64,000 nt of DNA, taken from NCBI GenBank assembly GCA_902591315.1, contig CACJAI010000002.1:1-64000 (forward strand). Reading direction: 5' to 3'. Position numbers and translations under genes: made by a program. Shown in pieces: positions 29,734-36,485 of the stretch. This DNA is from an uncultured Alphaproteobacteria bacterium (GTDB lineage Bacteria > Pseudomonadota > Alphaproteobacteria > HIMB59). The notes beneath the pieces are model-generated. The model did not search any database. It was not told where the DNA came from and was given only the letters and a program-made list of their open reading frames with translations. Each line of letters opens with the position of its first letter. The stretch's first letter is position 1.

Positions 29734-30198
29734 ATGTCTAAAACAAAAGAAATTATCACCATTGAACATACCCTAAAAGAGGTTCTTAAAAATTTAAGTG
29801 ATCAAGATATTCAAGATATCACTGGGAAGTCTAAGTCTTATATATACAAATGTGCTGATCCTGACGACAGTGATAGGAATATACAATTTAGAACTGTCAT
29901 TCGGTTAGAGCATGCTATGCATAAAATTTACCAAAAAACTCCCTTTAGCAATTTTTTGAAAGATTATTTAGCAACTGCCCAACCTGAAAAACCTGCTAGT
30001 GAAAGTGAAGTACAATCAGAGATATTAGCAATTGGTGGAAGATTGGGAGATTTAATGGATGCTGTACGTGAGTCAATGGATGAGAAAAGTTCAGGAGGAT
30101 CAAAAATAGTCCCACATGAAAAAGAGAAAATTTACCAAGACATCCAAAAATTAGATGATCAGTTGAGTAAAATTAAGAGTGTGTTAAAATCACTCTAA
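29734..30198 (+). CDS. HTH DNA-binding protein with C-terminal coiled coil
   Basis: N-terminal HTH-like 'SDQDIQDITGKSKSYIYKCADPDD'; possible regulator of the downstream channel gene. Confidence 0.5.
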   Translation: MSKTKEIITIEHTLKEVLKNLSDQDIQDITGKSKSYIYKCADPDDSDRNIQFRTVIRLEHAMHKIYQKTPFSNFLKDYLATAQPEKPASESEVQSEILAIGGRLGDLMDAVRESMDEKSSGGSKIVPHEKEKIYQDIQKLDDQLSKIKSVLKSL

Positions 30199-30207
30199 TT
30201 TGTTTTT
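30171..30207 (+). terminator. Terminator-like hairpin AATTAAGAGTG...CACTCTAATT-TGTTTTT overlapping the HTH stop and channel-gene start
   Basis: 10-bp stem with one bulged A and T-rich tail, read directly. Confidence 0.55.
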
Positions 30208-31552
30208 AAGGGGGATAATTTTAGGATTTTGGGTTTTCTTTTCCAGTGTTAGCTGGGGAGCAGAAATTTGTGAACGACTTCTAAAAAAAGACTTCAGAGA
30301 AACGTCTAACATTAGACTAGCTTATAACGATAGCGGTGTAGTTCTTGAGCAAAATCAACCTATTATCAACAAAAAACGCTTTGGCTCTTATGCTTTTAAT
30401 ACTCCTCTTAAGGCTGGAGTCCGCATCTTAGCTGTTGATCAAAAACCTGTTGCTTCCGATGATGTTGATGCCTACTTGTATTTATCCAACTTACTAGAGA
30501 CATCAGCAATGAGAGATCTCTCACTAACTGTTCAACATTTAGATGGGGAAGTGGAGATAGTTGACCTTAAAAGAATTCCTTATCTAGGTCACCCTATAGT
30601 TGAGGCAGATATAATATTAAATGATTTTGAGGTCATACAACAAAGTAGTAAATCAAATTTGAATTTAGAGGTGAATTTGCAGTGGCAAAATGAAGACTTA
30701 ATTCATAATTTTTTCAATTTAACAGAACTTGATAAATCACCTATTAAATGCATTTTTAGAAAGTCAGCAGAGCTTGAAAATATTTTACAAAAAATTTGGT
30801 ATCCTACATTTGAAACTACTCAAACAGGATCTTTTATAAATGATATAACCTTTAAAAGTTTACTTATCACAAACGATAAATCAGATCCTTTTAATTTTGT
30901 TCTCAAACAACAAATTAATTATCAAGTTACGAATTCCTCAGATTTTAAAAAATTTCCTTTTGATAATATTTCCACATCAGCTGATTTTATCTTCCAAGAC
31001 ATTGATTTAAGCACGTCTTCATTATACGACCCAGAAATAATTATAAGGGACGGTAATGAAATTTTGTATGAGTGGCAAATTAATGATCACACTTTAAATT
31101 GTTGTGACTCTCAAATTTATGGACAAGGAGTGCTCCAAAAACTGGAATACAGTTTTGATCTTAATCGTAAATCCTTTTACTATATCTTAAAGATAATCCT
31201 ACCTGTCATATTTTTGGTTTATTTATCATTTATGGTTTTCTGGATACCTTCACGTGAGCTAGAGTCTAAATTAGCTGTTAGTCTCGGATCTTTACTTACT
31301 TTAGTGGTATTTCAATTTACATTCGGAGATGATGTGCCAAAAATAAATGATTTCACCGTTCTGGACACAATGATATTGGCCTCGTACTTATTTACAGGGA
31401 TTTCAACGTTTATTACCATTATAAATCATGTTTTTTACTCTCGATCAAAAGAGATAACAACTCAACAAAATTATGACAAAAATCTCTTCGTTATTCTGTG
31501 TTTAACCTATCCAGTTGTAACTACTTTATTTGCCTTGAACGTTTATAATTAG
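30200..31552 (+). CDS. Prokaryotic pentameric ligand-gated ion channel (Cys-loop/pLGIC superfamily) with extra N-terminal PDZ-like domain
   Basis: Pro-loop 'FKKFPFDNISTSADFIFQ'; pre-TM1/TM1 'NRKSFYYILKIILPVIFLVYLSFMVFW'; TM2 'SRELESKLAVSLGSLLTLVVFQFTFGDDVPK'; TM3 'FTVLDTMILASYLFTGISTFITII'; C-terminal TM4; signal peptide; TTG start. Confidence 0.8.
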   Translation: MFLRGIILGFWVFFSSVSWGAEICERLLKKDFRETSNIRLAYNDSGVVLEQNQPIINKKRFGSYAFNTPLKAGVRILAVDQKPVASDDVDAYLYLSNLLETSAMRDLSLTVQHLDGEVEIVDLKRIPYLGHPIVEADIILNDFEVIQQSSKSNLNLEVNLQWQNEDLIHNFFNLTELDKSPIKCIFRKSAELENILQKIWYPTFETTQTGSFINDITFKSLLITNDKSDPFNFVLKQQINYQVTNSSDFKKFPFDNISTSADFIFQDIDLSTSSLYDPEIIIRDGNEILYEWQINDHTLNCCDSQIYGQGVLQKLEYSFDLNRKSFYYILKIILPVIFLVYLSFMVFWIPSRELESKLAVSLGSLLTLVVFQFTFGDDVPKINDFTVLDTMILASYLFTGISTFITIINHVFYSRSKEITTQQNYDKNLFVILCLTYPVVTTLFALNVYN

Positions 31553-31646
31553 ATATATTTCAAAACTTATATTATTGTCTAAAAAATTTAAATATCTCCC
31601 CAATCTTTATTTTTAAAATTTAGTATCTTTGTCTTCAGTGCAAAGA

Positions 31647-31807
31647 CCTCTCTCTTCCTTTCTGTTTTCTAGTTACTCCTTCTCTAAGTCATTTCCTACC
31701 AGGTTAATAAATGACAAACAAAAAAAAGAGAGAGGAAAAATTGAGGTGGTTTTTTCATGGTTCCTTTCTGTGCTACGGCTAATCCCATCCTCCTGTACAT
31801 TAGCCGT
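31647..31807 (+). promoter_or_regulatory. Highly structured leader with three perfect inverted repeats
   Basis: CCTCTCTCTT 31647-31656 / AAGAGAGAGG 31726-31735; GTCATTT 31688-31694 / AAATGAC 31709-31715; ACGGCTAAT 31775-31783 / ATTAGCCGT 31799-31807. Confidence 0.6.
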
Positions 31808-32408
31808 GGTGCAAAGAGGAAAATACTTAATACTAATAATTACTTCTCTATTTATTTTCTCCTTAAGCTCAGCGATGACTTTAGAAAGATTTCATGGTTG
31901 GAATATTCAATTATTGGAGGAGGAAATGATTGCAATCGAACGTAGTGGTGATGTTGAAGACTCAGAAAATATAATTTTTGTTATGACCAAAAATAATTGT
32001 GATCGCGTTCTCCAATTCTTTGAATTATTTACTTTATCAGTTCACCCTGATCTCACAAAATTATTAGATAAAGAAATTGAACTCCAGGAAAATGGTCATT
32101 CAACCACCGGAATGGTGCATGAAATATATCCATATAAGAATGGACACATGATTTTAATAGGCATGGGTTCATATAATCATGAAACGATTAAAGAATATTA
32201 TACTTTTCATAAACGCTCTCGCTTAACAGTCACTGATGTAACTTTCGAGGAACCAGTCGCTTTAAGAACATTCATAGACTTACCTACAATACAGTGGGCT
32301 ATGCCTCAAGTAGAGGAAGCCATGGACAGAGCGCATAGGCATTGTAAAAAAATACCTGATCCCATTTCAGCTAGCCTAAACAATTCTCAGAAAGGACTAA
32401 AAACATGA
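31806..32408 (+). CDS. Secreted hypothetical protein
   Basis: In-frame GTG before 'KYLILIITSLFIFSLSSA' signal peptide; start is tentative, ORF-track N terminus (31629) is over the hairpin region. Confidence 0.5.
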   Translation: MVQRGKYLILIITSLFIFSLSSAMTLERFHGWNIQLLEEEMIAIERSGDVEDSENIIFVMTKNNCDRVLQFFELFTLSVHPDLTKLLDKEIELQENGHSTTGMVHEIYPYKNGHMILIGMGSYNHETIKEYYTFHKRSRLTVTDVTFEEPVALRTFIDLPTIQWAMPQVEEAMDRAHRHCKKIPDPISASLNNSQKGLKT

Positions 32409-34584: not shown

Positions 34585-35508
34585 ATGAATGTTTTAAGTC
34601 TTTTTGATGGTATTAGCTGCGCAAGAATAGCAATAGAAAAGTCAGGCTATAAAGTAAATAAATATTTTTCTTCTGAACTTGACCTTAAGTGTTGTGAAGT
34701 CTCCAAAAAAAACTATCCAGACAACATTTTTTTAGGAGATGTAAATAAAATTGAGTTAAACGCCTTACCAAAGATTGATATTTTGATTGGTGGAAGCCCT
34801 TGCCAAGATATAAGCCATGCCTTTAAAGGCTCTGGTCTTTATGGTTTAAGATCATCCTTATTTTATAAATTTGTAGATTTAAAGAATAAATTAAATCCAA
34901 AATACTTTTTGTTAGAGAATGTCAAAAGCAAATGGAACACGATGATGGATGATGCCATAGGTGTTGAAGGTGTAGAGATAAACTCCTGTTTTTTTTCAGC
35001 TCAATTTAGACCTCGTGTTTATTGGACTAATATTTATTTACCTAATATTCCAAATGAAATTTCAGATGATAAAATTGATGACATTCTTGATAAATCTGTA
35101 AAAGACAAAAAATATTTTTTTAATCCATCTATCGACAAGTATTTCAAAGACTCACCATTATCTTTTTATAAAACACAAGGAGGCATATTAAAAGTAGGAG
35201 AGATTCCGAGAAAATTATTAAAGGATAATGAACGACAAAGAAGAGTATACTCTATTAAAAGCAAATCCCCAACTTTACTTGCTAGAGCTGATACGACTAA
35301 GATATTATATAAAAATAGAGTAAGAAAGCTTACCCCATTGGAATGTGAAAGGCTTCAAGGTATTCCAGATAATTTCACATCTGGTTTTAGTGATACAAGT
35401 AGGTATAAGATGATAGGTAATGCCTTTACCGTTCAAGTGATTTCCAAAATAATATCAAACATTGGAAAAAAAAATTCTAAACCTCGACAAGTAGGACTAT
35501 TTGCTTGA
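34585..35508 (+). CDS. DNA C5-cytosine methyltransferase
   Basis: 'LSLFDGISCARIAIEKSG', 'GGSPCQDIS', 'LLENVKSKW', 'RKLTPLECERLQGIPDNFT', 'MIGNAFTVQVI'. Confidence 0.92.
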   Translation: MNVLSLFDGISCARIAIEKSGYKVNKYFSSELDLKCCEVSKKNYPDNIFLGDVNKIELNALPKIDILIGGSPCQDISHAFKGSGLYGLRSSLFYKFVDLKNKLNPKYFLLENVKSKWNTMMDDAIGVEGVEINSCFFSAQFRPRVYWTNIYLPNIPNEISDDKIDDILDKSVKDKKYFFNPSIDKYFKDSPLSFYKTQGGILKVGEIPRKLLKDNERQRRVYSIKSKSPTLLARADTTKILYKNRVRKLTPLECERLQGIPDNFTSGFSDTSRYKMIGNAFTVQVISKIISNIGKKNSKPRQVGLFA

Positions 35509-36485
35509 AGTTCATAGATTTATTTTGTGGATTAGGTGGCTTTAGACACGCTCTAGAAAAACATGGAGCAAGGTGCGTATTAAGTAGTGACAATGATAAA
35601 TATGTTGCTGAGTCATACTATTTGAATTTTAAAGATAATCCCTTAAATGATATTACTAAAATATTAGTAAAGGATATACCCGAATTTGATTGTTTAACAG
35701 CTGGTTTCCCTTGCCAACCTTTTAGTATAGCTGGTCATAGAAAGGGTTTTGAAGATGTAAGAGGCACATTATTTTTTGATATTGTTAGAATTTTAAATGA
35801 AAGAAAACCTGAATATTTCATTTTAGAGAATGTAAAAGGTTTAATTAATCACGATAAGGGCAGAACTTTTAAAATAATGCTTAATACTTTAGCTTCTAAA
35901 ATTAACGGTGTGGAGAACTCATTCGTTCATAAAGACTGTCTAGATTATAATGTTTTTTGGAGTGTCCTTAATGCTTCTGACTATAACGTACCTCAGAACA
36001 GGGAAAGGGTTTTTATAGTCGGTTTTAGAAATAAGAGTGTCAAATATCAGTTCCCACAACAAGAAAGACTCAAAAACAAACTTGAAAATATTATTGAGGA
36101 CAGACCTAATCAATTTAAACAAATCTCAGATCTATCTTATAAATACATAATTAAGTATTTATCAGAGCATAATAAATATAATGAAATTAAAAATCTGAAA
36201 TATCTAGTCGCTTCTGAGATCAGAAGGAGCAGGGTAAATTTCCGTTTTGACAACATATCACCTTGTTTGACTACTAAAATGGGTACCGGGGGAAATAATG
36301 TGCCTTACTTAGTTAATCAGAAAAGGTTTTTTACTTTAAAGGAGTGTCTTTCTCTTCAATCTTTTCCCAAAAACTACAAGTTAGTTGATAATTATTCTGA
36401 ATCTTTAAAGCAACTAGGAAACACAGTTGTAATCAAAGTAGTAGAAAAAGTTTTTTCTAATATGATTAGATATTCTTCTACTTAG
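35505..36485 (+). CDS. DNA C5-cytosine methyltransferase (HhaI/Dcm-like)
   Basis: 'FIDLFCGLGGFRHALEKHG', 'AGFPCQPFSIAGHRKGFED', 'ILENVKGL', 'NVPQNRERVFIVG', 'QLGNTVVIKVV'. Confidence 0.94.
   Translation: MKFIDLFCGLGGFRHALEKHGARCVLSSDNDKYVAESYYLNFKDNPLNDITKILVKDIPEFDCLTAGFPCQPFSIAGHRKGFEDVRGTLFFDIVRILNERKPEYFILENVKGLINHDKGRTFKIMLNTLASKINGVENSFVHKDCLDYNVFWSVLNASDYNVPQNRERVFIVGFRNKSVKYQFPQQERLKNKLENIIEDRPNQFKQISDLSYKYIIKYLSEHNKYNEIKNLKYLVASEIRRSRVNFRFDNISPCLTTKMGTGGNNVPYLVNQKRFFTLKECLSLQSFPKNYKLVDNYSESLKQLGNTVVIKVVEKVFSNMIRYSST

Follow-up and report, generated by a model that had tools for sequence, protein, structure and literature searches.

A PDZ-fused bacterial pLGIC with a conserved cysteine pair in its loop C hairpin

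Known channels and the gene studied

The known prokaryotic channels closest to the one studied here are GLIC, ELIC and DeCLIC, all of the Pro-loop type. They share its fold, with an FPFD Pro-loop which lacks the Cys-loop cysteines, a pre-M1 arginine and four transmembrane helices. None of the three has two adjacent cysteines (CC) in the beta9–beta10 (loop C) hairpin; for GLIC and ELIC this agrees with the original prediction. Such a pair is found in the same hairpin of nicotinic alpha subunits and AChBP. According to the survey of Tasneem et al. (PMC549065), only some animal cation channels possess the consecutive-cysteine dyad. The fused or operonic partners of pLGICs listed there are PBP, MCP-N and Cache domains, and the term PDZ is absent. 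A 2016 inventory (PMC4795631) gives the biological role as unknown for every unicellular member. Jaiteh et al. 2016 do not mention the word vicinal, nor are PDZ-pLGIC fusions mentioned in the prokaryotic pLGIC survey which was checked. A full-text open-access search (prokaryotic pLGIC, vicinal, loop C) gave no bacterial pair, as judged by title and abstract; an earlier report may exist elsewhere.

The whole stretch of DNA which was analysed, 64,000 nt from an uncultured alphaproteobacterium, will be called the window. It contains an ORF of 450 amino acids in positions 30200–31552, with TTG as start codon; this gene and all its parts are on the + strand. The presence of a Neur_chan transmembrane domain (Pfam PF02932, E=2e-9, 38.4 bits against a cut-off of 28.1) places its product in the pLGIC superfamily. 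GLIC matches it by phmmer (E=2e-14), a profile search matches 303 PDB sequences, and in a Foldseek search the model finds pLGICs with a best E of 1e-16. The Pfam scan gave no match of the protein to PF02931. Foldseek nevertheless recognizes a beta-sandwich ligand-binding domain, and the FPFD Pro-loop and pre-M1 arginine are both present, with P253, D255 and R323 near-invariant.

The protein begins with a probable signal peptide (aa 1–21, 30200–30262): its N-terminus is hydrophobic, the model has a helix at 2–29, and cleavage after A21 was placed by eye. An N-terminal PDZ domain follows at about aa 49–128 (30344–30583). The window copy alone does not match PF00595, and the domain is assigned by alignment to orthologues. 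One of them, L065, matches PF00595 in positions 559–915 with E=3.7e-10, above the curated cut-off, and thereby identifies the N-terminal region as PDZ; another, L090, matches it weakly. Next comes an extracellular domain of the ligand-binding type (aa 130–323, 30587–31168; model pLDDT 86.6, pTM 0.81), with Foldseek matches to ELIC, GLIC and GABA-A. The four-helix transmembrane domain (31169–31549) is defined by PF02932, the model and the alignment, with M2 at about aa 354–375. A glutamate in M2 is aligned with E-2' of GLIC, and by inference the channel would be cation-selective. The gene product is best explained as a periplasmic and inner-membrane protein, predicted to join a signal peptide, a PDZ domain and a pLGIC. 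DeCLIC also has an accessory periplasmic domain ahead of the ligand-binding domain, which in the window channel is PDZ. A second addition with respect to GLIC, ELIC and DeCLIC is the pair C24 and C184.

Position and conservation of the cysteine pair

The channel has cysteines in positions 24, 184, 301, 302 and 434. The vicinal pair C301–C302 (TGT TGT, 31100–31105) comes after W292, the tryptophan of the EW motif, and before the pre-M1 R323, and the segment originally quoted is found in the ORF by exact match, with the CC between the EW motif and the pre-TM1 region. From W292 to C301 there are 9 residues, and 21 from C302 to R323; in Torpedo alpha1, where the spacing was confirmed against PDB chains, both distances are 16. 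The pair is thus shifted by 5–7 residues toward the EW end with respect to the nicotinic one. The hairpins themselves are similar in length: the span from W to Arg measures 31 residues in the window channel, as compared with 33 in Torpedo alpha1, and the loop is not about 6 residues longer, as had been read at first. GLIC is also close in this length. In the phmmer alignment to GLIC the CC falls 8 residues ahead of the two residues mutated in 4ire, which is described in the PDB as "GLIC with mutations at the loop C region".

Two AlphaFold2 models were built, one of the full-length protein (24 sequences, pLDDT 81.6) and one of the ectodomain alone (26 more diverse sequences, pLDDT 86.6). Both give the same hairpin (aa 292–323, 31073–31168), with beta9 at 292–307, a turn at G308–Q309 and beta10 at 310–323. 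The CC is predicted within beta9, 6–7 residues ahead of the turn; the models are template-free and derive from a shallow alignment, so that the register is uncertain by one or two residues. Spacing, GLIC alignment and models, three lines which agree, indicate that the pair belongs to the loop C hairpin, but on strand beta9 and out of the nicotinic register. The placement at the nicotinic alpha position, at the tip of loop C, is therefore abandoned.

Other nicotinic features are absent. The two cysteines which flank the metazoan Cys-loop are replaced by N245 and T259, and the loop B tryptophan of the aromatic box is aligned with Q266, a residue which does not vary within the CC clade. When residues are counted back from the pre-M1 arginine, the nearest equivalent of the CC is found in the second disulfide of the glycine receptor (C198–C209): its beta9 cysteine is 20 residues before the arginine, as compared with 21 for C302. 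That disulfide joins beta9 to beta10, but the window channel has no beta10 cysteine.

At the cysteine frequency of the window about 0.06 CC are expected per 450 aa, and 0.004 in the hairpin; over all window ORFs, from which alone the background was counted, there are 6 as compared with 2.5 expected. The CC of the window on its own could be due to chance. Chance does not explain why, in spite of synonymous codon change, it is invariant in all 26 orthologues. These are distinct sequences, including the window copy, with 50–100% identity and all from a single alphaproteobacterial genus. Their records are single-cell genomes with AG- names, titled as uncultured Alphaproteobacteria and in one case as Pelagibacteraceae; we take these collections to be marine. 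The pair is encoded as TGT/TGT in 14 of them, TGC/TGT in 6, TGC/TGC in 4 and TGT/TGC in 2. Since all four combinations are present, it is the residues and not the DNA which are kept, and they must be under selection. The positions on either side (298–300 and 303–306) are variable.

No CC was found in the same place in paralogues of the genus or in pLGICs of the same order, class and phylum; outside Pseudomonadota the comparison covers solved structures. In the tree all sequences with CC form a single branch (support 100/100). L083 and L070, which are sister to it, have no CC, yet they share the same locus, with its upstream gene and downstream neighbours. With one such clade, and sisters which lack the pair at an equivalent locus, the pair is derived and convergent: it is a trait of one lineage, with a single origin inside one genus. 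Convergence and ancestry had both been offered at first; the former stands, while the tree and the sisters rule out the latter. The feature is real, conserved and convergent, and its nicotinic resemblance is looser than in the first reading. We thus have a conserved bacterial counterpart of the dyad in the same hairpin and with a clear independent origin, which provides a natural test of an adjacent cysteine pair near loop C without the nicotinic aromatic box.

Possible roles of the pair

The conserved cysteines of the ectodomain are exactly four: C24 (30269–30271), C184 (30749–30751, in a short beta3-like strand), C301 and C302. The first two are near-invariant among the channels of this order, whether or not CC is present. 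CC-less relatives, both in the genus and in the order, retain the two of them, so that the CC clade has gained exactly two cysteines, and a paired gain of this kind favours bonding within the pair. A vicinal disulfide at C301–C302 is most likely on these grounds, and a second one probably links C24 and C184, tying the N-terminal segment to the beta3 region. DsbA is encoded in 51 of the 52 genomes of the genus and DsbB in 39; both are present in all ten well-completed genomes.

A mechanism can be proposed from these elements. In a periplasm oxidised by DsbA, C301 and C302 would form a vicinal disulfide, which would produce a bulge in beta9 and stiffen or shape the principal side of the interface between subunits. 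The C24–C184 disulfide would separately clamp the N-terminal segment onto the top of the ectodomain. The motion of loop C would be tuned in this way, and with it the gating by a periplasmic ligand, in convergence with nicotinic receptors and not by shared ancestry. To this reading, taken as a whole, we give about an even chance. Vicinal disulfides are rare. Moreover, both AlphaFold2 models draw a regular strand at the CC; in such a strand adjacent side chains face opposite sides, so that a vicinal disulfide could form only if the strand were locally distorted, and the models have no such distortion. The hypothetical effect of the pair would be a stiffening or a redox tuning of the hairpin.

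It is also conceivable, though unlikely, that C301, C302 or both are reduced or switch between states. They would then be a thiol or metal sensor, or a ligand site at the subunit interface, where the binding of a soft metal, or of a reactive thiol as ligand, would gate the channel. In pLGICs beta9 is part of the principal side of the interface, both thiols are strictly conserved and H297 is invariant in the CC group. However, this histidine is four residues away, and in a flat strand it would be too distant for the same metal to be bound by it and by C301. It is also present in some CC-less paralogues, no further ligand residue was found to track the CC, and the DsbA and DsbB of the genus count against free thiols. 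Rather doubtful is a bolder version: a redox-active vicinal switch which evolved independently in the hairpin of a PDZ-fused pLGIC, with gating that responds to the periplasmic redox state or to thiol or metal ligands, as a second and non-homologous counterpart of the nicotinic pair.

Four ectodomain cysteines permit other combinations, in which C301 or C302 is bonded to C24, to C184 or to a neighbouring subunit. The disulfide would then connect two domains or two subunits. We consider this improbable: C24 and C184 persist without CC in paralogues of the genus and the order and most likely pair together, and by beta3 homology C184 should be near the membrane-distal end. True homology with the pair of nicotinic alpha subunits, by inheritance from a common ancestor, is hardly credible: the hairpin is the same and a tyrosine is found at +5 after the CC, as in the CCPDTPY of Torpedo alpha1, but this tyrosine is lost in two orthologues, the register (off by 5–7 residues) rules out homology by position, the Cys-loop cysteines and the loop B tryptophan are absent, and the tree contradicts it, CC being absent from the closest sisters and from every other prokaryotic pLGIC compared.

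Variation of the locus among relatives

The vicinal pair is kept in all alleles of a gene whose segments diverge strongly. As compared with genome G048, the neighbouring genes have 94–99% DNA identity from an FAD oxidoreductase to g32405, and 88% at g32677. In the channel itself the identity is 49% for PDZ, 66% for the extracellular domain and 71% for M1–M3. The pattern is different with G018 and G040: as far as loop C the identity is 84–97%, in the pore only 61% (M1–M3) and 41% (M4). The identity of four-fold third bases is 0.80–0.97 in the neighbours and 0.23–0.35 in the divergent channel segments, with few sites in some of them; for PDZ, extracellular domain and pore, values down to 0.27–0.35 are found between alleles. 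Low values in the channel with high ones around it point to replacement by old diverged alleles and not to a burst of amino acid change. By these identities the channel gene is a recombining allele cassette, into which old diverged alleles are swapped by recombination. Allele swapping and the PDZ-pLGIC architecture offer two ways to approach what a bacterial pLGIC does in the cell.

When window positions 30344–31549 are compared with L049, L048 and L045, the swapped segments have 41–71% DNA identity, and the neighbours on both sides mostly 88–99%. The PDZ and extracellular part and the pore part swap separately. Two members of the genus have at the same locus a shorter channel with neither PDZ nor CC (L058:5336–6565 and L059:4652–5878). 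A genus-wide requirement for the channel was considered and rejected: 21 of the 52 genomes have no match, though many of them are incomplete.

The gene upstream (29734–30198, +) codes for 154 aa and ends 1 bp before the channel. It has no confident Pfam assignment; its synteny is found in 15 genomes, and it is paired with the channel even in the deep CC-less sisters. Downstream there is a conserved syntenic neighbour (31629–32408, +) with no function assigned. A second pLGIC paralogue, about 30% identical and without CC, is found in other genomes (L048:3898–5319, L049:10488–11909, L050:10465–11886 and L051:3208–4380). There it belongs to a separate module, which also contains a diverged version of the 154-aa gene; in three of the genomes the distance downstream from the first channel is about 4–5 kb. 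The second paralogue was not found in the assembly of the window, which is 65% complete.

An origin of the gene in phages or plasmids was set aside, as no relative was found in viral contigs or phage records; one distant plasmid pLGIC, from Legionella adelaidensis, has no CC. A few kb downstream of the channel, in window positions 34585–36485, there are two adjacent genes for C-5 cytosine DNA methyltransferases (PF00145). On this side the locus is not the same in all relatives.
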